From contig NZ_FOIE01000004.1 in the NCBI RefSeq assembly GCF_900111455.1, positions 62,001 to 126,000 of the forward strand: 64,000 nt of DNA, given 5' to 3'. Shown here piece after piece: positions 2,493 to 62,072 of this stretch. Both the position numbers and the translations under genes were made by a program. Within the stretch, counting starts at the first letter, position 1; each line of letters begins with the position of its first letter. The stretch comes from Geodermatophilus poikilotrophus (GTDB taxonomy: Bacteria > Actinomycetota > Actinomycetes > Mycobacteriales > Geodermatophilaceae). The notes beneath the pieces are model-generated. The model was not told the origin of the DNA. It was given only the letters and a program-made list of their open reading frames with translations, and made no database searches.

Positions 2493-3494
2493 TCAGTCGC
2501 GCGGGTCGATGGGCCGGCCCGCCGTGACGTCGCGCCGCAGGTCGGCGGCGTCCGCGCCGTCGGCCGGGAGCTCGATCTCGTCGTGCGTCCGCGCCGCCTC
2601 GGCGGCCAGGGCGTCGGCGGACTCCAGCGCGCGGTCCTTGCGGTACTCGCGGAAGGAGTGGACGACGGCCGCGGCCCAGATCGCGTAGATCACCGCGTAG
2701 ACCGCGTAGCGGACGGGGTCGGAGGCGTCGATCCAGTCGCTGCGCAGCAGGGTGCGGGTGTTGGTCAGCACGATCATGCCGCCGACCAGCGAGCCGAGCA
2801 TCCGCGGCGGGACGTGCCGCACGAGCCACGCGGCGAGCGGCGCGGCGACGAGCCCACCGGCGAGCAGCCCGAGCGCCCAGGTGGCGTCGACGCCCTGGGA
2901 GCCCAGCGCGACGAGGAAGCCGAGGCTCGCGGCCACGGCGATCAGGAACTCGGAGGTGTCGATCGAGCCGATGACCTTGCGCGGTTCCATCCGCCCGCTG
3001 GCCAGCAGGGCCGGGGTGCCCACCGGGCCCCAGCCGCCGCCGCCGGTCGCGTCGACGAAGCCGGCCACGAGGCCGAGCGGACCGAGGAAGCGCTTGCGGA
3101 CCGGCTTGCCCAGGTGCCGCCGGTCGATCCCCCGGAGGGTGAAGCGCACGAGCAGGTAGACGCCGAGCGACACCAGGATCAGCGACATGACCGGGGCGGC
3201 GACCTCGGTCGAGAGGCTGGAGAGCACGTTCGCACCGATGAAGGCGCCGACCGCACCGGGGACGCCGACCTTGGCGACGACCTTCCAGTCGACGTTGCCG
3301 AACTTCCAGTGCGCGAGGCCGGACATCAGGCTGGTGCCGATCTCGGCGAAGTGCACGGTGGCCGACGCGGCGGCCGGGTTGGTGCCGATGGCGAGCAGCA
3401 GCGTGGTCGACGTCACGCCGTAGGCCATGCCGAGGCTGCCGTCCACGAGTTGCGCACCGAGGCCCACGAGGGCGAGGAGGACGAGGGTCTTCAC
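2493..3494 (-). CDS. TauE/SafE family sulfite exporter
   Basis: A 333-residue polytopic membrane protein with about eight hydrophobic segments and the family's GLGAQLVDGSLGMAYG N-terminal motif. A second repeat-like motif, GFVDATGGGGWGPVGTP, lies near the middle, as in TauE/SafE exporters of sulfite, organosulfonates or related anions. The GTG at 3494 is chosen because GGAGA sits 8 nt upstream and the first membrane helix starts right after it; an upstream ATG at 3677 would add a 61-residue unrelated Arg/Pro-rich extension. A short Cys-containing leader peptide lies 91 nt upstream, pointing to control by cysteine or sulfur supply. A hairpin repeat follows the stop. Confidence 0.85.
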   Translation of the reverse strand: MKTLVLLALVGLGAQLVDGSLGMAYGVTSTTLLLAIGTNPAAASATVHFAEIGTSLMSGLAHWKFGNVDWKVVAKVGVPGAVGAFIGANVLSSLSTEVAAPVMSLILVSLGVYLLVRFTLRGIDRRHLGKPVRKRFLGPLGLVAGFVDATGGGGWGPVGTPALLASGRMEPRKVIGSIDTSEFLIAVAASLGFLVALGSQGVDATWALGLLAGGLVAAPLAAWLVRHVPPRMLGSLVGGMIVLTNTRTLLRSDWIDASDPVRYAVYAVIYAIWAAAVVHSFREYRKDRALESADALAAEAARTHDEIELPADGADAADLRRDVTAGRPIDPRD

Positions 3495-3585
3495 GGGCTG
3501 GTCTCCGGATCCGGGAGGTCCGCGGGCGCGCGGGCAGGCGCGGTGCAGCGCGGGGGAGGAGCGAGGGGTGCGCGGAGCGCGGGGG

Positions 3586-3669
3586 TCAGCAGCCCGGACA
3601 GCGGGCGGTGCAGACGCGGAGCAGGTCGACGTGGATCCGCCCCACGAGGAGCACCGTCGTCGCCGCCAC
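3586..3669 (-). CDS. Putative cysteine-responsive leader peptide
   Basis: A 27-codon frame starting GTG at 3669 and ending TGA at 3586. It encodes a hydrophobic start followed by HVDLLRVCTARCPGC-stop, with three Cys codons at the end. Short peptides with an HVDLLRV...C..CPGC ending are known upstream of sulfur-assimilation and transport genes in actinobacteria, where ribosome stalling at Cys codons is thought to attenuate transcription. Here it precedes a sulfite-exporter gene by 91 nt. A TAGACA -10 (3678-3683) and TTGGGC -35 (3702-3707), 18 nt apart, place the likely transcript start at or next to the GTG, so it may be leaderless. An internal GTG at 3654 is an alternative start. Confidence 0.7.
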   Translation of the reverse strand: MAATTVLLVGRIHVDLLRVCTARCPGC

Positions 3670-3677
3670 GGGTGCAA

Positions 3678-3707
3678 TGTCTACCAGGTCGATGCATTAA
3701 TGCCCAA
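3678..3707 (-). promoter_or_regulatory. Promoter of the leader peptide-exporter unit
   Basis: On the minus strand TTGGGC (3702-3707), 18-nt spacer, TAGACA (3678-3683). The GTG of the leader peptide follows 8 nt after the -10 hexamer. Confidence 0.45.
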
Positions 3708-3736
3708 AGCACGTCCCGGAGCGTGGGACGGCGGGG

Positions 3737-4291
3737 TCAGGCGTGCGCGTGGACCGCCTCGTCGCCCAGGGTCTCGACCAGGTCGGCCCGGGCGCGCGCC
3801 ACCCGCGACCGGATGGTGCCCACCGGGCAGCCGGCGACCTCGGCGGCCTCCGCGTAGGGCAGCCCCAGCAGCTGGGTGAGCACGAAGGCCTCGCGGCGGT
3901 CGGGGGAGAGCCGGGCCAGCAGGTCGGCGACCGCGGCACCCTCGCCCACCCGGTCCGCGTCGTCCCCGGCGCCGAGGGCCTCGAGGTCGGCGTCCTCCCG
4001 CACGAGGGTGAGCCGGCGGCGCCGGCGGGACCGGACGGCGTCGGCGCACACCCGCCGGGCGATCGACAGCAGCCAGGTGCGCAGCGAGGAGCGGCCCTCG
4101 AAGCGGTGCAGGGACCCGAACGCGCGCAGGTAGGTCTCCTGCGTCAGGTCGTCGGCGGACTGCCGGTCCCCGAGGGCCGCGCACAGCCGCCAGACGTCGG
4201 ACTGGGTGGCACGCACCAGGGCCGCCGCGGCGAGGGGGTCGCCGTCGACGGCGGCAGCCGCCAGCCGCTCCAGGTCGTCCACGTGTCCCAT
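3737..4291 (-). CDS. ECF-type RNA polymerase sigma factor
   Basis: A 184-residue sigma-70 family protein with region 2 (DDLTQETYLRAFGSLHRF, then SLRTWLLSIARRVCADAVR) and region 4 (LPYAEAAEVAGCPVGTIRSR), and no region 3, i.e. an ECF factor. It directs RNA polymerase to a small regulon. It is divergent from a zinc-finger anti-sigma gene 77 bp away, which heads a copper-handling operon, so copper-linked genes are the likely regulon. SigC-type factors are linked to copper in mycobacteria, and this one may be analogous; that is inference. The ATG at 4291 puts an acidic N terminus before region 2. It is the only gene of its unit; the exporter lies downstream. Confidence 0.9.
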   Translation of the reverse strand: MGHVDDLERLAAAAVDGDPLAAAALVRATQSDVWRLCAALGDRQSADDLTQETYLRAFGSLHRFEGRSSLRTWLLSIARRVCADAVRSRRRRRLTLVREDADLEALGAGDDADRVGEGAAVADLLARLSPDRREAFVLTQLLGLPYAEAAEVAGCPVGTIRSRVARARADLVETLGDEAVHAHA

Positions 4292-33654: not shown

Positions 33655-34884
33655 GTGAGGCGCGTCGAGGCGGGGGTGGTCCGCCCGGGCTGGGAGGCCG
33701 AGATCGAGGCCCAGGGCCTGGTCTACAACCGCACGGACCTGCCCGGCGGCGAGGTGCGCAGCTACTGGCGCGAGGGGCCGTTCTACGACTTCACGATGGC
33801 CGAGGTGGAGCAGCTGGGGGGCTGGGTCGCGCAGCTGTTCGAGATGTGCGTGGCCGCCGGTGACCACGTCGTCGAGCACGACCTGTTCGACCGGATGGGC
33901 ATCCCGCCGATCGCCCGACCGGAGATCCGCCGCACCTGGGAGACCGAGCCGCCGAGCGTCTACGGCCGCTTCGACCTGCGCTACGACGGGCAGGGCCCGC
34001 CGAAGCTGCTGGAGTTCAACGCCGACACCCCGACCGGCCTGGTCGAGTCCGCCGTGACCCAGTGGAACTGGCACCTGTTCACCGGTCAGGGCGCCGACCA
34101 GTGGAACGCCCTGCACGACAAGCTCGTCGCCGCCTGGCAGCGCAACCTGCTGCGCTGGGAGCGGCGCACCGGCGTCCGCCCGCGGGTGCACCTGGCCTGG
34201 ACGTCGGAGGAGCGCTCCGGCGAGGACCGGATGACCGTGGCGTACCTGATGGACACCGTCGTGCAGGCCGGCTACGAGGCGATCGAGCTGGTCGTGGAGG
34301 ACATCGCGCTCGACGACGGGGACGGCCGCTTCTACGACCAGCAGGGCCGCCACCTCGACGTCGTCTTCAAGCTCTACCCGTGGGAGTGGCTGATCGAGGA
34401 CGAGTTCGGCCCCGCCGTCCTCGCCGACGCCGCCCGCCCGGGCGGGACCACCTGGGTGGAGCCGGCCTACAAGATGCTGTGGAGCACCAAGGCGCTGCTG
34501 CCGGTGCTGTGGCAGCTCTTCGGCAGCGACGCGGCGCTCTCCCCGCTGCTGCTGCCGGCCTACTTCGCCGACGAGATGCCCTCGTCCTGGCAGACGTTCG
34601 TGCGCAAGCCGCTGTGGGGCCGGGAGGGCGCCAACGTGCAGATCGTCCGCGACGGGCAGGTCGCGGTGGAGATGCCCGGCCGGTACGGCACCGAGGGCTG
34701 GATCGTGCAGGAGTTCGCACCGCTGCCCGACTTCTCCGGCGTCGACGGTCCGCACCACCCGGTGCTGGGGGCCTGGGTGGTCGACGGCGAGCCGGCCGGT
34801 CTGGGCATCCGGGAGAGCGACGGCCTGGTCACCGACAACCTCAGCTTCTTCGTGCCGCACACCGTCGACTTCACCGCTCCGTAG
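33655..34884 (+). CDS. Glutathionylspermidine synthase family ATP-grasp protein
   Basis: A 409-residue protein of the pre-ATP-grasp/GSP-synthase domain. Typical segments are PPKLLEFNADTPTGLVESA, QWNWHLFTG, DVVFKLYPWEW, YKMLWSTKALLPVLW, FVRKPLWGREGANVQI and EGWIVQEFAPLPDF. Family members join a carboxylate to an amine using ATP, as in glutathionylspermidine synthesis. The true substrates here are unknown, and the amidase half of the E. coli enzyme is absent. GTG 33655 follows GGAGAGGACTGGG. It is monocistronic, ended by the hairpin at 34945. Confidence 0.88.
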   Translation: MRRVEAGVVRPGWEAEIEAQGLVYNRTDLPGGEVRSYWREGPFYDFTMAEVEQLGGWVAQLFEMCVAAGDHVVEHDLFDRMGIPPIARPEIRRTWETEPPSVYGRFDLRYDGQGPPKLLEFNADTPTGLVESAVTQWNWHLFTGQGADQWNALHDKLVAAWQRNLLRWERRTGVRPRVHLAWTSEERSGEDRMTVAYLMDTVVQAGYEAIELVVEDIALDDGDGRFYDQQGRHLDVVFKLYPWEWLIEDEFGPAVLADAARPGGTTWVEPAYKMLWSTKALLPVLWQLFGSDAALSPLLLPAYFADEMPSSWQTFVRKPLWGREGANVQIVRDGQVAVEMPGRYGTEGWIVQEFAPLPDFSGVDGPHHPVLGAWVVDGEPAGLGIRESDGLVTDNLSFFVPHTVDFTAP

Positions 34885-34944
34885 GGCGCGTCTGACGAAC
34901 CTCCAGCCTCGGTGGCGCCGCCCAGGCGGCGCTCCGCTGCGTTC

Positions 34945-34986
34945 GAGAGGCCGTCGGACACGAACCCCGGTATCCGACGGCCTCTC
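34945..34986 (+). terminator. Hairpin terminator after the ATP-grasp gene
   Basis: A 14-bp perfect stem (34945-34958 with 34973-34986) around a 14-nt loop, about 60 nt after the stop. Confidence 0.75.
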
Positions 34987-35082
34987 GGCCTTGCTGAGCA
35001 TCCCCCTGGCCGTCCCTCCCATCGGCATGGGTCCGTCAGGCACGCCCTGGCCGGGCGCCGGTAGCCGACCTACGGTCGGGAC

Positions 35083-35544
35083 ATGCCGCTGGAAGGTGAG
35101 TACGAGCCGAGCCCCGAGGCCTGGGTGCGCGAGCAGGTCGAGCGCTACGAGGCGACCGGGGGCCGGGAGGCCAACACGCTGCGCGACACCGGGATCCCGA
35201 TCGCCGTCTTCTGGACCCGCGGTGCGAGGACTGGGAAGGTGCGGAAGAACGGCCTGATGAGGGTCGAGCACGAGGGTGCCTACGCCATGGTGGGCTCGCA
35301 GGGCGGCGCCCCCAAGGACCCGGCGTGGGTGGCCAACCTCCGCGCGCACCCCGACCAGGTCACCGTGCAGGACGGGCCCGAGCCGTGGGACGGCGTGGCC
35401 CGCGAGGTGACCGGCGAGGAGAAGCGGCAGTGGTGGGAGCGGGCCGTTGCGGTCTATCCCGAGTACGAGCGGTACCAGCAGCGCACCGACCGGGAGATCC
35501 CGGTGTTCGTCGTCGAGCGGGCCGACCCGGTGAACCCGGCTTAG
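35083..35544 (+). CDS. Deazaflavin (F420)-dependent nitroreductase family protein
   Basis: A 153-residue split-barrel protein of the DDN family. Characteristic parts are PIAVFWTRGARTGKVRKNGL, YAMVGSQGGAPKDPAWVANL and ATG-type basic residues for F420 phosphate contact. These enzymes use reduced F420 to reduce quinones or nitro compounds. The ATG at 35083 lies 6 nt after a TACGGT -10 hexamer, so the mRNA is probably leaderless. Its stop codon overlaps the iron box of the next gene. Confidence 0.88.
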   Translation: MPLEGEYEPSPEAWVREQVERYEATGGREANTLRDTGIPIAVFWTRGARTGKVRKNGLMRVEHEGAYAMVGSQGGAPKDPAWVANLRAHPDQVTVQDGPEPWDGVAREVTGEEKRQWWERAVAVYPEYERYQQRTDREIPVFVVERADPVNPA

Positions 35545-35559
35545 GAGAGGCTGTCCTAA
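35541..35559 (+). promoter_or_regulatory. IdeR/DtxR-type iron box overlapping a stop codon
   Basis: TTAGGAGAGGCTGTCCTAA is a 19-bp site with perfect TTAGGA/TCCTAA half-sites. The TAG stop of the preceding gene (35542-35544) lies inside it. The siderophore-binding lipoprotein starts 43 nt downstream. Confidence 0.8.
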
Positions 35560-35601
35560 GTTCTCCCGTGCCGGAGGTGCCGGCGACGCGAGGAGGCGGC
35601 G

Positions 35602-36561
35602 GTGCGGACGACGTGGGGAACACTGGCGGTGGCGTCGGGGCTGGTGCTGGCCGGCTGCGGCTCGGCGGACGAGGGGACGACGGCCGCAGCGCCGTCCACC
35701 GCGGCCGCCGCGGTCCGCACCGTGGAGCACGCTGCGGGCACCACGGAGGTCACCGGCACCCCGGAGCGGGTCGTCGTCCTCGACACCGGTGAGCTCGACG
35801 CCGTGCTGGCGCTGGGCGTCACCCCGGTCGGCGCGGTGCGCACCGGGGTCAGCGACGAGCTGCCGGCCTACATCGAGGACGCCAGGGTCGACCCGGCCCG
35901 GATCGCGAACGTGGGCACGATCGCCGAGCCGGCCCTCGAGGAGATCGCGGCACTGGACCCGGACCTGATCCTGTCCAACTCCGTGCGCCACGCCGAGATC
36001 TACGACCAGCTGTCGGCGATCGCGCCGACCGTCTTCGCCGAGGCGATCGGGGAGACGTGGGAGGACAACCTGCGGCTGGCCGGGGAGGCGCTGGGCCTTC
36101 CCGACGAGGCCGAGCAGCTGCTGGCCGACCACGAGGAGCGGGCCGCCGAGGTGGGCGCCCTGTACGGCGACCCCGCGGCCACCGAGGTCAGCGTGGTGCG
36201 CTTCCTCGACGGCTCGGCGGTCCGCCTCTACGGCGAGGGCTCGTTCATCGGCGACGTCCTCGGCGACGTCGGCTTCGCCCGCCCCGAGGTCCAGCGCACC
36301 GCCGAGACCTTCGTCGAGGTGAGCCCCGAGCAGATCGACCGGGCTGACGGCGACCTCCTCTTCTCCGCCTCCTACGGCGACGAGGGCCGGACCGCCGCCG
36401 GGCAGGTCACCTCCGGCGGGCTGTGGCAGGGGCTGTCCGCGGTGCAGGAGGGGCGGGCCTTCGAGGTGGACGACGACCGCTGGTTCCTGGCGATCGGGCC
36501 GCTGGGCGCCGGGCTGGTGCTCGACGACCTGGAGCGGTTCGCGCAGCAGCCGGCGAGCTGA
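35602..36561 (+). CDS. Iron-siderophore ABC transporter substrate-binding lipoprotein
   Basis: A 319-residue lipoprotein (lipobox LAGC, Cys19) of the FepB/FecB class. It has the ERVVVLDTGELDAVLALGV entry, an ALDPDLILSNS turn, a long connecting helix and the C-terminal FLAIGPLGAGLVLDDLE. It should capture a ferric siderophore outside the membrane for an ABC importer encoded elsewhere, as no permease or ATPase gene is adjacent. GTG 35602 follows GAGGAGGCG closely. An iron box at 35541-35559 points to IdeR control, together with the siderophore-interacting protein gene. Confidence 0.92.
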   Translation: MRTTWGTLAVASGLVLAGCGSADEGTTAAAPSTAAAAVRTVEHAAGTTEVTGTPERVVVLDTGELDAVLALGVTPVGAVRTGVSDELPAYIEDARVDPARIANVGTIAEPALEEIAALDPDLILSNSVRHAEIYDQLSAIAPTVFAEAIGETWEDNLRLAGEALGLPDEAEQLLADHEERAAEVGALYGDPAATEVSVVRFLDGSAVRLYGEGSFIGDVLGDVGFARPEVQRTAETFVEVSPEQIDRADGDLLFSASYGDEGRTAAGQVTSGGLWQGLSAVQEGRAFEVDDDRWFLAIGPLGAGLVLDDLERFAQQPAS

Positions 36562-55417: not shown

Positions 55418-56689
55418 ATGACCGCCGTGCCGCTCGACCCCGCTCTCCGCACGTCGCCGAACACTGCGTCCGCCCCGCGGGCGCTGCTCACCGTCTCCGG
55501 AGGCGACCGGCCGGGGGTCACCGCGCGGCTGTTCGCCGCCCTGGCCGGGCCCGGCGGAGGGCTCCCGCCGGTCGAGGTGGTCGACGTCGAGCAGGTCGTC
55601 GTCCACGGTCAGCTGGTGCTCGGCGTGGTCGTCGGGGCACTGCCGGCCGAGGGTGGGCCGGTGGCGGAGGAGCACTTCCTCGCCGCGCTCGAACGACTGG
55701 CCGCCGACGTCGCGGAGGCGACCGGGGTGCAGGTGCAGGTGGAGTCGGCCGCCGACGCCGGGCTGGACGCCGCCCCCGACGGCCGTCCGCACCACGTCAT
55801 CCTGCTCGGCCGCCCGGTGTCACCCGAAGCCGTCGCCGGGGCCGCCTCGGCCATCGCCGGCATCGGCGGCAACATCGAGGCCATCCGCCGTCTCTCGGAC
55901 TACCCGGTGACCAGCTTCGAGCTGACCGTCTCCGGCGCCGAGGCCACCGAGCTGCGCACCGCGCTGGCCTCGGTCGCCTCGACCAGCAACGCCGACATCG
56001 CCGTCGAGCAGGTCGGCCTGGCCCGCCGCAGCAAGCGGCTCATCGTGCTCGACGTCGACTCCACCCTCGTCCGCGGCGAGGTCATCGACGAGCTCGCCGC
56101 CCGCGCCGGGCGGGCCGCCGAGGTCGCCCGGATCACCGCCGCCGCGATGAACGGGGAGCTGGACTTCGCCCAGTCGCTGCGGGCCCGCGTCGCCGCGCTG
56201 GAGGGGCTGCCGGTCGAGGTGCTCGACGAGGTCCGCGGGGCACTCGTGCTCACACCCGGCGCGCGCACGCTCATCCGCACCCTCAAGCGGCTCGGGTTCC
56301 GCTGCGGCATCGTCAGCGGCGGCTTCACCCAGATCACCGATCCGCTGGCCGAGGAGCTCGGCCTGGACTTCGCCGCTGCCAACACCCTCGAGGTCGCCGA
56401 CGGGCGGCTCACCGGGGGCCTGGTGGGGGAGATCGTCGACCGCGCCGGCAAGGCCCGCGCCCTCGCCCGCTTCGCCGACCGGTACGGCATCCCGCTGGAC
56501 CAGACCGTGGCCGTCGGCGACGGCGCCAACGACCTGGACATGCTCAACGCCGCCGGGCTGGGCATCGCCTTCAACGCCAAGCCCTACGTGCGGGAGCAGG
56601 CGGACACGGCGCTCAACCAGCCCTACCTCGACGCGGTGCTGCAGGTGCTCGGCTTCACCCGTGACGAGGTCCTCGACGCGGTCCCCTGA
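55418..56689 (+). CDS. serB: Phosphoserine phosphatase with N-terminal ACT-like domains
   Basis: A 423-residue protein. The first 195 residues form two ACT-like regulatory regions (LLTVSGGDRPGVTARLF; IAGIGGNIEAIRRLS). The HAD phosphatase follows with motif I VLDVDSTLVRGEVID, a Ser in IVSGGFTQIT and motif IV AVGDGANDLDML. It makes serine from phosphoserine in the cytoplasm. The ATG at 55418 gives the usual actinobacterial length. It is convergent with the SecA-like gene, 21 nt away. Confidence 0.95.
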   Translation: MTAVPLDPALRTSPNTASAPRALLTVSGGDRPGVTARLFAALAGPGGGLPPVEVVDVEQVVVHGQLVLGVVVGALPAEGGPVAEEHFLAALERLAADVAEATGVQVQVESAADAGLDAAPDGRPHHVILLGRPVSPEAVAGAASAIAGIGGNIEAIRRLSDYPVTSFELTVSGAEATELRTALASVASTSNADIAVEQVGLARRSKRLIVLDVDSTLVRGEVIDELAARAGRAAEVARITAAAMNGELDFAQSLRARVAALEGLPVEVLDEVRGALVLTPGARTLIRTLKRLGFRCGIVSGGFTQITDPLAEELGLDFAAANTLEVADGRLTGGLVGEIVDRAGKARALARFADRYGIPLDQTVAVGDGANDLDMLNAAGLGIAFNAKPYVREQADTALNQPYLDAVLQVLGFTRDEVLDAVP

Positions 56690-56710
56690 GCCGGTCCCCG
56701 CCCGTTCGGC

Positions 56711-59700
56711 TCAGGGCTGCGCGAGCACGTCCTCCACCCATCGCCACAACCCGGCCGCCACCTCCCACACGTCGATGAGGTCGGCGATACCGCGGAGTAC
56801 GAGGAAGGCCACGACCAGCAGACTGACCCGCTTGCCGAAGCGCGTCAGCACCTCCTGGACGTCGCCGACCATGCTCCCCGAGAGCGTCTCCGTGTCGCCG
56901 CCGCCGGCCGGACGCTCGGAACCCACAACCTGCGACAGGCTCAACACGGCCGCGCTTATCAGCTCGGCGCCGATGATTCCTAGGCCCGCCGCCAATAGGC
57001 CGAGGTTCACGTCCGGCCCGCCGAACAGGCTGCCGACCGAGCCGACCAGAACCGCGCAGACGACGATCAGTGAGGCCGTGGCAACCTCCCGCGCCACGAG
57101 CAATCGGCGCAGTGACGCCAGGCCGCTCTCTAACGTCGGCCGTCCTGCGGTGGGCCGGTAGGCCTGATTGGCGCCGCGCAGCCGCGAGGTCCACCGCCCC
57201 GGTGCGGTGGCCGTCACCGCCAGGCGTCGGGCCCACAGCGAGTACACGACGAGGTACACGGCCCCTGTCACCAGGCTCTCCCCGAGGGCATCCAGCCGCC
57301 CGCGCAGGACCGCCCCCGTCGCCAGAGCGGCGAGGAGTGCGTAACAGTGGGCCGGCCACCTTTCGGGTACGGGTAACGGGACCATCGAGGGGACGGCGTG
57401 GCCGGCGTCCCCTCCGTCCTCGGTCCACTGCATGGAACTGACCGGCAGCCGCAGCCGGAACAGGCCCCGGGAGAGGATGACGGCGACGCCGAGGAGCGCC
57501 GGGACGATGACCGCGGTCCCGTGCTGGCGGCCAAGCGCGGGCAGGGCCACGCCGAGGACGAAGACGCCGATGAGGGCGGCCGGGACGTGGACGCGACCGA
57601 CGTTCTGAGCCGTCCACACCAAGTTCCGGACGACAACGGCAGCGGCCAGGAGGACGGCAACCACGACCGCGTCCCGCGCCCAGCCGCGCGTGGGTTCGGC
57701 CGCGTTCGCAAGCCAGATCGAGACGGTGATCGCCGCGAGCAGAGCCAGTATTCGCTCGGCCGGCGAGTTGCCCACCACATCCCCGTAGCCGCGCGGCAGC
57801 CATCCGACGAAGGTGGCACCGAGAGTGGCGACGAGGGCGGGGCCGAGGACGGAAGCGGCCCCCAGCATGCCGCCGGACAGTGACAGGTCGAGCAAGCGTC
57901 CCCAGCCGGTCGACGACACCGGCCCGCCGACGTGGGCCATGGCGAGGAAGAGCCCGACGGCGACAGCGGCGGTGACGGTGAGGACCCCGGCGGCTAGCCG
58001 GGGCGCACCCAGCCGGGCCGTCGCCCGCCGCCACATGACCTGCGACCGGGTGCGGACTCCCTTCGGGCGTCGGGCGACCACCCCTTGCGCGTTGAGAAAG
58101 TCCAGAAAGTCCCGAACCGTCCGGTCCACCTTGCGCCGGCGCCAGGGCATCGGACGGAGACGGACGGGGTCCTTCCGCCACCGGTCCATGGCTTCAGCCA
58201 CTCCCTCGGGGGTGGACATGGCGGCGAGCGGCGTGGCGTCGAGCAGCGCGTTGAGCGCGGGAGCGACCTCCTCAGGCCGCGGCCCGCGGCGCGCGTCCCC
58301 CGTGTTGGCCAGGGAGTCGAGGAAATACCGGACCAGGGTGTCCCGTTCGCCGGACGGTCGGTGGTCCAGATCGTCATCCGCCGTCGCCGGCGGGGTGAAG
58401 CGGCGAGCGAAGTCGGTGACCTCTCCAATGGAGGGCGGTACGTACACGCTGGCATCCCGGGCGGTGAAGAGCGCGTCGAGCACCGCCGGATCAGCCCCCT
58501 TCCGCAAGTTCACGACGAGCTGCTTCACGAGATTCGACTCGTGGACCTTCAGGAGGTCTTCGGTCCCGGCGCAGTAGGCGCTCTGATGACGCAATGCGCT
58601 GAGCTGGCGCTGGGTGACCTGAAAGCGGAGCCGTTGGAGTCCGTCGTTCACCGCGTCCGAGGTCTCGGTGAGCGTCTCTGAGACGATGGACACCGGGTCG
58701 CGGCCACGCGTCTTCCGCGCGGCGGCATCCGCCAGCGGCACAGCGGCAACCCGCTCCTGGAAGCGTCCCACGGCCCGGCTCAGCCCCTCCGACAGCGCCT
58801 CCAGGTCCGCCGCGGCCGGGGCGCCGGGCGTGACGGGCAGCCGGACGGTGCGGACGACTAGGCCCCGCAGTTCCTGGAGTATCTGCGTCGTCTCGTCCGG
58901 GTTCTCGGCGGACGGGGCGACCTGGGCGGTGTCCGGAACTCGCACCGGGGCGCCCAGTCGCTGCGCTAGCCCTTCCCGTACCCATTCCCGCGCATCCGCC
59001 CAGGAGAACCGCGGACCGGGGGTGCCGGCTCGGGCCCATCCCGGAGGGAGGCACACGTGGGCCGGTGCCGGCGCGGCACCGGACAGCCGGTCGACCCGCG
59101 CGCGGAGTACGGCTAGGACCTGCAGCCCCCACGCAGCCGCCGCTGCGGCGTGGTGCTGTGCCGTGAGCTCTTCGGTGCGCCGCACGTTCTCGCGCATCGC
59201 CTCATCCAGCCGATCGACGAGGTGGGTCGTGATGATCTGCTTCGCGGCCTCCCCCGCCTGGCCGAGCACGCGCACGTGCAGTTCGTCGGCCGGACCATCG
59301 AGGCCGAGGGCGCCGCCCACCTGGGCCGCGATGCGCGCGGCCTCCGGCTGGGTGACCGTCTCGGTGCCGAGGCTGGGTAGGTGATAGGCGATGAAGGTGG
59401 TCGCGATGTGCTCCAGGAAGGGCCTGCCGAACAGGGAACCGTCGGTGTGCTCCTGCGCGGCTCGTCGCCAGCCCTCCAGCATGCGGTAGACGTCACCGTC
59501 GGCCCGCTTCGCCGTGACGTTGCCGGCGAAGCGTTGCAGTTTGAGCTGGCGGAGTGACCGCTGGAGGGAGTGCAGGCCACGGTCCATGGTCCGGGACTCG
59601 ACGCCGCGGCGAGGCCAGGCCCGGCCGACTCTGGCCCCGAGGGGGATCAGGCTGACCAGGTCGTCGTCGGGGTGATTGCAGAAGTATGCGGTGTAAGGGT

Positions 59701-61348
59701 TGCCCCGCCGACCGACTCGGCCGAGCAGTTGCCGGTCGTGGCGGGGCTCGCTGCTGTGACCGAGCAGGATGAGCAGGCTGCCACCGTTCTCCCGGGCTCG
59801 TTCGTCGAGCGGGATGTCCACGCCCCGGCCGGCCTGTCGGGTGGAGACCAGCACTACGGCGGGCCGTCCGGCATCCTCGAACTGCCTCTCCTGCGCGGCC
59901 GACTCGCCCAGCGCCAGTCGGACGTCCACGTCTTCGGGCAGGGTCTCCCGCAACCGGCTGCAGAGCTGGTACACCGTGGGTTTGGCCGAGGCGACCACGA
60001 GCAGCGGCCGGAGGGGGGCCTCGCGGGCGGCCACCTGCTCGATGTGCTCCTCCGCGTCAGCCAGTGACGGGAAGTAGAGATCCGGACGGCGACCGTGACG
60101 TCGCTTGTGCCGCGGGCGGATGATCGCCAGCGGCAACTGGGCTAGTAGCAGGTACTCGACGGCCTCGTCGACGACCGTGCCGGACGTCCCGGCGAAGTGG
60201 TCGAATCCCAGGAGCGTGTCCAGGCCTGAGGTGACGTGGATCGCCTGCAAGTGTGGCGGAACCATCAGGCCGCGGGCGCTCGCGAGAGGCGCCACCCAGT
60301 CCGGGGTCACCTCCGGGCGGCGCCAGCCGCTCTGCGGGTCCAAGGGGACGACCCGGTGGTTGATGATCTCGTAGTCCCTGCCCTCGACAGCCTCGAACAG
60401 GCCGGCGTAGGCGAGTTCGATGTCGCGGTAGAGCCCCAGGTGCTGGGCTTCGTCGAGAAGGGTCCCGGACACGTCGCGCACGTGCTGCTGACCAGCGGCG
60501 GTCAGGTACACGCGCTTGATGTTGGGATCTCTTGCACGCTCGACGTGCCGGTCGCCCAGTTCTCGTGCCAGGGAGGCGGCCAGACGCCAGTTCTTGGTCC
60601 GCGCGGACACGGCCCGAGTGATCCGGTACGTGTCCGACTCGGCGTCGAGGAGGATGGCGTCGACCTCGTCCACCAGTACGGCGGCGGCCCGCAGCGAGCG
60701 CTGGTCGGTTCCCGGCACCAGGTCGTCATCGAGCTTTCGGAAGACGAGGGAGTTCGCCGTGGTGTAGACGACGCGCGCATCCCAGGTCCGCCAACCGCGG
60801 GCCTCATACCCCTTCGGCAGGGCGGCGCCGACGGAGATGCCGAGCGCGGTCCAGTACGGGGCCGTCTTGGCGGCGTCCCGGATGGCCAGGTACGGGTTGG
60901 CCGTCACCACGTAGACCCGGTCGTGCCGGCGAAGCAGGGCTAGTGCCGCCACCATCAGCGCAAACGTCTTCCCTTCTCCGGTGTCCATCTGCACGAGCGA
61001 GCCGCGCATGAGGTGGGCCGCGCACTGGACCTGCTCTTCGTAAAGCGACGTGCCGCGTGGGGTCCCCTGCGGAGGAAAACGGCGGAAGGCAGCGCAGGCC
61101 AACGCCAGGGCCTCGGCGTCGCGCTCGTCCAGCCGCTGACCGATCAGCCGGTAGCGACCGGCGTCCTCCTCGGTGGGCACCGCGGCCTTCGGCGCGTGGA
61201 CCAGCCGGTGACAGGCCTCGCGGAGCGCGGCGTCGTTCAGAGCAGCGTGGCTCGCTGCCAGCTCCAACGCCCGCCGGGCGGTGGACTCCCCGTTGAAGCC
61301 GCTCAGGGCCTGCGTGATCGTCCCCACCAGGAACCCGAGCCGGCTCAT
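56711..61348 (-). CDS. SecA-like ATPase fused to a polytopic membrane domain
   Basis: A 1545-residue protein. Residues 55-570 are a SecA-type motor: Walker A MDTGEGKT (121-128), DEVD box (227-230), a preprotein-binding-like insert (about 280-395, with LFEAVEGRDYEIIN and FAGTSGT), motif V STRQAGRGVDIPL and motif VI QLLGRVGRRGNP. Residues 570-1100 are helical and unassigned. From about 1115 to the end there are ten or eleven membrane helices, which normal SecA lacks; SecA's zinc-binding tail is missing. ATG 61348 has GGGGGAAG close upstream. AT-ending codons such as CTA, AAT and TTA-phase words are visibly commoner than in neighbours, hinting at transfer. It lies between pncA and serB. Role unknown; energised transport of protein is inferred. 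Confidence 0.85.
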   Translation of the reverse strand: MSRLGFLVGTITQALSGFNGESTARRALELAASHAALNDAALREACHRLVHAPKAAVPTEEDAGRYRLIGQRLDERDAEALALACAAFRRFPPQGTPRGTSLYEEQVQCAAHLMRGSLVQMDTGEGKTFALMVAALALLRRHDRVYVVTANPYLAIRDAAKTAPYWTALGISVGAALPKGYEARGWRTWDARVVYTTANSLVFRKLDDDLVPGTDQRSLRAAAVLVDEVDAILLDAESDTYRITRAVSARTKNWRLAASLARELGDRHVERARDPNIKRVYLTAAGQQHVRDVSGTLLDEAQHLGLYRDIELAYAGLFEAVEGRDYEIINHRVVPLDPQSGWRRPEVTPDWVAPLASARGLMVPPHLQAIHVTSGLDTLLGFDHFAGTSGTVVDEAVEYLLLAQLPLAIIRPRHKRRHGRRPDLYFPSLADAEEHIEQVAAREAPLRPLLVVASAKPTVYQLCSRLRETLPEDVDVRLALGESAAQERQFEDAGRPAVVLVSTRQAGRGVDIPLDERARENGGSLLILLGHSSEPRHDRQLLGRVGRRGNPYTAYFCNHPDDDLVSLIPLGARVGRAWPRRGVESRTMDRGLHSLQRSLRQLKLQRFAGNVTAKRADGDVYRMLEGWRRAAQEHTDGSLFGRPFLEHIATTFIAYHLPSLGTETVTQPEAARIAAQVGGALGLDGPADELHVRVLGQAGEAAKQIITTHLVDRLDEAMRENVRRTEELTAQHHAAAAAAWGLQVLAVLRARVDRLSGAAPAPAHVCLPPGWARAGTPGPRFSWADAREWVREGLAQRLGAPVRVPDTAQVAPSAENPDETTQILQELRGLVVRTVRLPVTPGAPAAADLEALSEGLSRAVGRFQERVAAVPLADAAARKTRGRDPVSIVSETLTETSDAVNDGLQRLRFQVTQRQLSALRHQSAYCAGTEDLLKVHESNLVKQLVVNLRKGADPAVLDALFTARDASVYVPPSIGEVTDFARRFTPPATADDDLDHRPSGERDTLVRYFLDSLANTGDARRGPRPEEVAPALNALLDATPLAAMSTPEGVAEAMDRWRKDPVRLRPMPWRRRKVDRTVRDFLDFLNAQGVVARRPKGVRTRSQVMWRRATARLGAPRLAAGVLTVTAAVAVGLFLAMAHVGGPVSSTGWGRLLDLSLSGGMLGAASVLGPALVATLGATFVGWLPRGYGDVVGNSPAERILALLAAITVSIWLANAAEPTRGWARDAVVVAVLLAAAVVVRNLVWTAQNVGRVHVPAALIGVFVLGVALPALGRQHGTAVIVPALLGVAVILSRGLFRLRLPVSSMQWTEDGGDAGHAVPSMVPLPVPERWPAHCYALLAALATGAVLRGRLDALGESLVTGAVYLVVYSLWARRLAVTATAPGRWTSRLRGANQAYRPTAGRPTLESGLASLRRLLVAREVATASLIVVCAVLVGSVGSLFGGPDVNLGLLAAGLGIIGAELISAAVLSLSQVVGSERPAGGGDTETLSGSMVGDVQEVLTRFGKRVSLLVVAFLVLRGIADLIDVWEVAAGLWRWVEDVLAQP

Positions 61349-61499
61349 CGCTTCCCCCAGGCGTGCAGACCCCACCGCGCGGGGGTTGTCAGTGGTCGCG
61401 GAACCGCCCCCACCGTCCCTCTCCCCGACGGCGGGAGGATAGGCGGCTGGCAGGGCGCGCAGAACCTTCCAGCGTCCGCCTGCGCATCGCCCGGAACGG

Positions 61500-62072
61500 T
61501 CAGCCCTCGGGGATTTGCTCCTCCAGGCGCACGCCAGCCGTGCGCAGCTGCTCCAGCGCGGCGTCGGTGGTGGCCTCGCTGACGCCGGCGGTGAGCGGCA
61601 GCAGCACCCGCGTCGCGAACCCCTCGGCGACGGCGTCCAGCGCGGTCGCTCGCACGCAGTGGTCGGTGGCGATGCCGACGACGTCGACGGCGTCGACCCC
61701 GTGCGCGCGCAGCCAGTCGGCGAGGGGCACGCCGTCCGACACCCCCTCGAAGCCGGAGTAGGCGGCGGCGTGCTCGCCCTTGTCGAACACCGCCTCGATG
61801 GGCTCCCGTTCCAGTCGAGGGTGCAGCTCGACGCCGTCCGTGCCGACGACGCAGTGCGCCGGCCACGTCTCGACGAAGTCCGGTTGCTCGGCGAAGTGGC
61901 CACCGGGGTCGACGTGGTGGTCGCGGGTGGCCACCACGTGCGCGTACTCGGCGGCGTGCGCGCGGACGTGCCCGCTGATCGCGGCGGCGACGTCCGCGCC
62001 ACCGGCGACGGCGAGACTGCCGCCCTCGCAGAAGTCGTTCTGCACGTCCACGACCACCAGGGCGCGGGTCAT
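61500..62072 (-). CDS. pncA: Nicotinamidase
   Basis: A 190-residue isochorismatase-fold enzyme. Catalytic residues are Asp9 (VVDVQNDF), Lys98 (FDKGEHAAAYS) and Cys139 (GIATDHCVRATA); metal ligands lie in ATRDHHVDPGGHF. It converts nicotinamide to nicotinate for NAD salvage. It follows pncB on the same strand with a 10-nt gap, so the two form an operon that does the first two salvage steps. The ATG at 62072 is preceded by GAGGACGAG. Confidence 0.95.
   Translation of the reverse strand: MTRALVVVDVQNDFCEGGSLAVAGGADVAAAISGHVRAHAAEYAHVVATRDHHVDPGGHFAEQPDFVETWPAHCVVGTDGVELHPRLEREPIEAVFDKGEHAAAYSGFEGVSDGVPLADWLRAHGVDAVDVVGIATDHCVRATALDAVAEGFATRVLLPLTAGVSEATTDAALEQLRTAGVRLEEQIPEG

Follow-up and report, generated by a model that had tools for sequence, protein, structure and literature searches.

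A gene joining a SecA motor to a probable SecY-type membrane domain in Geodermatophilus poikilotrophus

A single gene inserted between serB and pncA

The window analysed here is the whole 64,000-nucleotide stretch of contig NZ_FOIE01000004.1 of Geodermatophilus poikilotrophus. It contains a long gene whose product combines a SecA motor, a helical linker and a membrane domain that is most likely of the SecY type. The gene lies between two genes that are named serB and pncA here from their sequences. The features of the locus, with residues numbered along the 1545-aa product, are:

55418-56689, plus strand: serB-like flanking gene, found in all 26 genomes examined in the genus
56683-61519, no strand: inserted stretch with no aligned counterpart at the serB-pncA junction of the other genus genomes
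56711-61348, minus strand: gene for SecA motor, linker and putative SecY-like membrane domain, 1545 aa; open frame, five relatives of the same architecture
56783-56839, minus strand: eleventh membrane helix predicted by hydropathy, residues 1504-1522
56915-58018, minus strand: probable SecY-like membrane domain of ten helices, residues 1111-1478 (models, fold searches, topology, profile alignment)
57086-57229, minus strand: basic loop TM8/TM9, cytosolic by prediction, residues 1374-1421 (48 residues, 10 K/R), at the position of the SecY C5 loop
57356-57460, minus strand: loop TM6/TM7, cytosolic by prediction, with a predicted beta hairpin, residues 1297-1331, at the position of the SecY C4 loop
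58019-59443, minus strand: helical linker, residues 636-1110 (~475 residues), without convincing family match
59444-59647, minus strand: start of the SecA scaffold helix, residues 568-635, where the profile-profile match ends
59648-61069, minus strand: SecA motor, residues 94-567, its two nucleotide-binding domains flanking a preprotein-binding-like insert (Pfam and PDB sequence match)
59708-59731, minus strand: motif VI QLLGRVGR, residues 540-547, with Q540, G543, R544, G546 and R547 invariant
60254-60616, minus strand: preprotein-binding-like insert, about residues 245-365 (SecA alignment; Pfam SecA_PP_bind in relatives)
60659-60670, minus strand: Walker B DEVD, residues 227-230, with D227, E228 and D230 invariant in six members
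60965-60991, minus strand: Walker A QMDTGEGKT, residues 120-128, identical in six of six members by construction, the relatives having been found with this motif
61500-62072, minus strand: pncA-like flanking gene

Homology with the other genomes of the genus ends near 56682 and resumes near 61520. In all 25 of these genomes serB and pncA are separated by no more than 1.4 kb, pncA having been located in a flank of up to 1.5 kb next to serB; the gap between the aligned ends is 291 bases or less in 22 genomes and ~1.07 to 1.35 kb in three. None of the 25 genomes matched the C-terminal part of the gene, which is a single-gene gain in this genome. A recent arrival as a lone gene had been proposed in the preliminary description, and it is borne out by the 25 genomes without the insert and by a GC3 of 86.7%, lower than in the four flanking genes ctaD, serB, pncA and pncB (94.2-98.1%). 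As also stated there, no partner gene was recognised beside it.

Two of the three wider serB-pncA junctions (L067 and L069, positions 2800-4280) carry a different inserted pair of genes, which by eye resemble glyoxalase and AraC genes, suggesting that this site may repeatedly take up foreign genes.

The gene begins with an ATG at 61348 and continues as an uninterrupted frame of 1545 codons. The same frame stays open upstream to 62002, where it overlaps pncA in another frame, and for this reason the ATG at 61348 was kept as the start. GC3 is between 80 and 93% in every one of fifteen 100-codon blocks (codons 1-1500), an evenness that speaks against a frameshift joining two genes. Such a frameshift or an assembly joint, considered from the outset as a possible artefact, was rejected given the open frame, the even GC3 and the 447 kb length of the contig. 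The intact frame thus agrees with the earlier view that motor and membrane part form a single chain.

A SecA motor and its relatives

Comparison with known protein families showed that the N-terminus has the make-up of a SecA motor with intact ATPase motifs. Pfam SecA_DEAD matched residues 22-398 (E 1e-32; 113.8 bits vs a cut-off of 24.6) and P-loop_SecA matched residues 434-516 (E 2e-7; 31.1 bits vs a cut-off of 27), and solved SecA proteins (PDB sequences) matched residues 94-567 with a best E of 5e-34. The residues of Walker A, Walker B and motif VI are intact. The presence of a preprotein-binding insert is supported by alignment with SecA. The Pfam model SecA_PP_bind exceeded its cut-off in one relative (P0004) and reached 23.4 vs 23.5 bits in the Woeseiaceae member (P0002) and 20.9 bits in P0007; it did not match P0008, P0003 or the G. 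poikilotrophus protein itself (P0001), which nevertheless has the aligned region.

The preliminary description had placed SecA in the N-terminal 570 residues. The ATPase motifs and the preprotein-binding-like insert stand, but the end point moves, since homology reaches the first scaffold helix, up to about residue 635. The profile match stops there, and the two-helix finger, the wing and most of the scaffold were not recognisable in the protein; the Bacillota relative matches the SecA profile further, to model position 713 of 789. The top NCBIfam models were SecA and SecA2, at 163 bits vs cut-offs of 725 and more, so that the protein is not SecA or SecA2 proper. Canonical SecA as its identity was rejected on these missed cut-offs and on the ordinary secA that, as anticipated, was found elsewhere in the same genome (C14:34916-36052).

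We scanned a genome collection of 84,980 species for the Walker A motif QMDTGEGKT and found ten loci, five of which encode a motor, a linker and about ten membrane helices. The other five are SecA2-like, with 776-806 aa and no membrane domain, one of them being cut by the locus end (597 aa). As the search motif selects members that keep QMDTGEGKT, the family may be larger. One fusion relative belongs to a named isolate, Actinokineospora terrae (631 kb contig), and has 36% identity to the G. poikilotrophus protein; the others come from metagenome-assembled genomes of Woeseiaceae (25%), Phycisphaeraceae (24%), Propionibacteriaceae (23%) and Bacillota (21%). Two of the five belong to the Actinomycetota. 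Four of the five are complete, the Phycisphaeraceae member having its 5' end cut by the contig; two relatives running off their locus were completed.

The SecA-membrane fusion is therefore spread over six lineages, and the five relatives indicate a rare family and not a one-off; an architecture peculiar to this genome was rejected on the same grounds. In a tree of 38 motors the six members formed one side of a branch with a support of 100/100, P0003 being a very long branch and the program warning of long branches and unlike letter make-up. That the protein is a decaying or non-functional fusion would fit such rarity and divergence, but the frame is unbroken, and the Walker B and motif VI residues do not vary among six lineages whose proteins share 21-36% identity, which makes this highly improbable.

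Each relative's genome also holds an ordinary SecA, the SecA genes in these five genomes being 711-1191 aa long and, as far as their frames were seen, free of predicted membrane helices. The search for SecA motors with C-terminal helices and for their neighbours, suggested together with the original description, thus yielded five relatives and, among the locus stretches seen, no shared neighbour gene. Ten neighbouring frames from four of the five loci were scanned with Pfam and eight match ordinary families. In the Propionibacteriaceae and Bacillota loci the GC3 of the fusion gene is below that of its neighbours. A 187-aa frame without Pfam match (L115:13647-14210, minus strand, GC3 0.68) lies ~40 bases upstream of the Propionibacteriaceae fusion gene and may have arrived with it.

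The C terminus matched only its own genome at every level covered, that is, 1 of 26 genomes of the genus, 1 of 57 of the family and 1 of 148 of the class. The motor was matched in 288 of 296 genomes of the phylum; among the matches listed, frames other than its own have 579-1145 aa and 24-31% identity to it. A profile search in Pseudonocardiaceae returned one full-length match in 390 among the matches listed; frames of up to 1394 aa occur there, but their match ends around model position 670 of 1524. Outside the family, the best match to the profile among those listed is a divergent 804-aa SecA-like gene of a Pseudonocardiaceae genome (G682; L140:7216-9630, plus strand). It has no multi-helix partner alongside, and each of the two frames that follow downstream is predicted to contain a single membrane helix.

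Scans of genome contigs and viral contigs for close relatives found no fusion relative. When the whole protein was searched against plasmid and phage proteins, and three relatives against plasmid proteins, SecA motors were all that matched, and the C terminus had no match among plasmids. Three plasmid loci were noted besides. A plasmid SecA-like gene annotated as a DEAD/DEAH helicase (L028, NZ_CP049813.1 62979-76448) has as neighbours RND adaptor genes, a PqqD-family protein and a giant LEPR-XLL open frame of 31.8 kb, and has the look of an accessory locus that exports a giant protein. The Miltoncostaea megaplasmid NZ_CP064357.1 (L025, L136) has a divergent SecA-like gene at 34134-36329 with the same QMDTGEGKT Walker A, and also carries a SecY-family gene at 84386-85573, about 48 kb from it. 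On a Shinella plasmid (L139, NZ_CP081988.1, near 985726) there is a SecY-like open frame of ~429 aa, absent from the plasmid gene table.

The linker and the membrane domain

According to the preliminary description, the C terminus consists of a long helical linker and ten or so membrane helices, and our data agree. Hydropathy predicted 11 membrane segments, all beyond residue 1119, and 9 or 10 segments in each of the five relatives, an extra pick at residue 58 of the Woeseiaceae protein falling in the motor part. In the linker, a block at about residues 1000-1089 was modelled at pLDDT 63-82 and the rest mostly at low confidence. The side predicted from charge only to face the cytosol carries the long loops TM6/TM7 (35 residues), TM8/TM9 (48 residues) and TM10/TM11 (38 residues). 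A pattern with two long cytosolic loops fits the topology of SecY, whose loops TM6/7 and TM8/9 are named C4 and C5; a local profile match to SecY also falls on the TM8/TM9 loop. The putative eleventh helix is possibly SecE-like and may stand in for SecE.

Two AlphaFold models were built with the six-member alignment, one of residues 560-1545 of the G. poikilotrophus protein (model 1) and one of the membrane domain alone of the Woeseiaceae member (model 2). The latter includes no SecA residues, and thus SecA cannot have hinted at SecY there. Overall confidence was low (mean pLDDT 49.5 and pTM 0.32 for model 1; 52.5 and 0.47 for model 2), in particular for TM1-5, which like the linker may have a different fold, and pLDDT was 71-85 over residues 1330-1429 of model 1 and 72-86 over residues 1363-1452 of model 2. 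Both models have a beta hairpin before TM7 (at moderate confidence) and a helix plus a short strand between TM8 and TM9.

In structural comparisons, 49 of 50 rows for model 1 were SecY/Sec61 (Z 7.6-10.9; 8oj0_1 counted as Sec61 by inference), the remaining row matching another part of the model. For model 2, SecY/Sec61 made up 46 of 50 rows, including the first 44 without exception. The best matches were 2zjs_Y (Z 10.9, 198 aligned, 3.9 A) and 5gae_g (Z 10.0, 264 aligned, 4.7 A), respectively, with the tool warning that a Z of 10-11 is within reach of unrelated helical bundles. Foldseek placed SecY/Sec61 at ranks 1-16 for model 1, with probabilities of 0.72-1.00 vs at most 0.21 for the unrelated rows shown, and at ranks 1-5 for model 2, with unrelated rows interspersed among the later ones. 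Among the rows shown TM-scores were at most 0.42, and E was below 0.001 for one match of model 1 and two of model 2. With the low-confidence stretches omitted, residues ~1276-1475 of the G. poikilotrophus protein align with Sec61 residues ~242-468, presumably TM6 to TM10 of Sec61. The structure prediction proposed earlier therefore puts SecY/Sec61 first, at low model confidence, and it is the recurrence of the same fold in two members and two search methods that supports a SecY-like channel. The lack of a competing fold among these matches does not prove it.

The low confidence and low TM-scores are also what can be said for a different protein, a membrane-tethered remodelling or extracting ATPase, in which the helices would be an anchor of unrelated fold and the SecY match an AlphaFold artefact of the shallow alignment. 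This reading has to contend with the lead of SecY over every other fold in both members and both searches, and 10-11 helices with long cytosolic loops far exceed what an anchor needs.

A cleaned profile of the six members was compared with a profile of 13 SecY sequences. The global alignment was collinear over 356 columns and scored 21.4, a value reached by 3 of 650 locally shuffled SecY decoys (1/150, 2/250 and 0/250), and the local score was reached by 4 of 150 decoys. In this register the plug GG coincides with that of SecY and TM8-loop-TM9 lines up, and a shift of one residue separates both the TM7 proline and the TM10 GG from their SecY counterparts; P-x-x-[FY] stands at the start of TM7 in three of the six members. 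The global controls were reversed SecY (14.6), a ctaD profile (8.1) and three single unrelated membrane proteins (1.5-10.6), and only the ctaD profile is a like-for-like control, because three of the four unrelated controls are single sequences and single SecY sequences also score just 1.9-9.0 globally against the family profile. Local scores of single SecY sequences (13.7-18.6) were hardly above those of unrelated controls (13.6-17.2), with the best local match near the expected diagonal for four of six and off it for two. The uncleaned alignments gave a global score of 13.1, with the C-terminal half alone in register and the N-terminal half not collinear. The HH-suite probability of SecY against the family was 14% (global) and 2.5% (local).

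Plain sequence searches gave no SecY match by Pfam in any of the six members at E up to 10, nor was SecY found by the family profile among PDB sequences. With a SecY HMM, 56 of 100 shuffles of the membrane domain scored as high as the domain itself, and one of the six members beat all 100 of its own decoys. The SecY assignment thus rests on structure and on the global profile alignment. The missing sequence match and the weak HH-suite probability fit a tethered ATPase, whereas a collinear profile alignment that beats nearly all decoys does not, and we consider such an ATPase unlikely. Taken together, models and profiles indicate that the membrane part is most likely a SecY-type channel.

A putative translocase and its known counterparts

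Our best reading of the protein is a single-chain SecA-SecY protein translocase, to which we give a probability of a little under 60%. The SecA motor would bind ATP and an unfolded polypeptide through its two nucleotide-binding domains and the preprotein-binding insert. It would lie against its own C-terminal SecY-like channel on the cytosolic side, held by the TM6/7 and TM8/9 loops in the way that SecA is held on SecY, and cycles of ATP would drive the polypeptide through the ten-helix channel or let it leave sideways. The eleventh helix may replace SecE. The docking, ATP-driven transport and its direction, the substrate and the independence from SecYEG are inferred. As the two-helix finger is not recognisable, the power stroke may differ from that of SecA. 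The protein falls short of the equivalog cut-offs of SecA and SecA2 and has no plain match to SecY, yet it probably works like a Sec translocase.

The one-protein translocase had been offered earlier as a guess. The match of the membrane part to the channel fold of SecY/Sec61 lends it specific support, the fold itself being read from low-confidence models and a profile alignment. A bolder version, a self-contained natural translocase with SecA, SecY and a SecE-like helix in one chain, acting without SecYEG and hopping between phyla as a lone gene, is possible but doubtful.

Another role for the same machine can be considered. A lone mobile conflict gene would keep the SecA-SecY chain for anti-phage defence or inter-bacterial conflict, for example to export or extract invader proteins or to collapse the membrane on infection. 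The single-gene insertion in 1 of 26 species, the patchy spread without shared partner and the deviant codon use here and at two other loci are consistent with it, and giant actinobacterial toxins are mentioned, in the available part of one source, as having SecA-like ATPase domains (PMC8195603). PADLOC matches were weak, at best 0.0018 for the G. poikilotrophus protein; these and the match of the Woeseiaceae member to the DinG model (4e-9) were read as generic helicase similarity. There is no recognised defence gene among the ten neighbouring frames, eight of which have a Pfam match, and searches of phage records and viral contigs yielded no relative that has the membrane domain. We regard a conflict role as quite improbable, more so than a tethered ATPase.

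If a single-chain translocase is what the gene encodes, it bears on questions debated in protein export: whether one SecA and one SecY are enough, how motor and channel are geared, and what number of copies is at work. In a natural one-chain machine the ratio of motor to channel is set at one to one, and such a machine, if active, would offer a simple subject for structural and single-molecule studies. It would further demonstrate that a motor fused to its channel can spread as a single mobile gene, apart from the conserved Sec genes.

SecA-only channels are treated in the available part of PMC5456053. Several known systems share part of the present architecture. The giant actinobacterial toxins combine a SecA-like ATPase with membrane transport domains, according to the part of that source at hand, but their membrane part is of the MFS type and they carry toxin and glycosyltransferase domains, none of which was recognised in the G. 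poikilotrophus protein or its relatives (PMC8195603).

Accessory secretion systems offer another likeness, a second, non-housekeeping SecA in a genome that also holds the ordinary one. In these systems SecA2 and SecY2 are separate genes, whereas no separate partner or substrate gene was seen here. With SecA-SecYEG the protein shares the motor domains and probably also the preprotein-binding insert and the channel fold with its motor-docking loops. It differs in being one polypeptide with a divergent motor and a long extra linker; SecE and SecG partners were not seen alongside, and the finger and wing of SecA were not recognisable.

The preliminary description knew of no system with this architecture. 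For natural proteins this stands, as no natural SecA-SecY fusion was found in searches of the open-licence PubMed Central literature, but a man-made SecY-SecA fusion has been published (PMC5562318, as far as the available part goes) and is cited in the accessible part of a review (PMC10465204). In that construct, as described in the available part of the paper, Thermus SecY comes first and SecA second, joined by (GGSG)4, and with separate SecE and SecG it translocates protein (PMC5562318). In the G. poikilotrophus protein SecA comes first, and the joint is a helical region of ~475 residues. Channel and motor are covalently joined in the engineered protein as they would be in the natural one, and its activity indicates that such a fusion can work.
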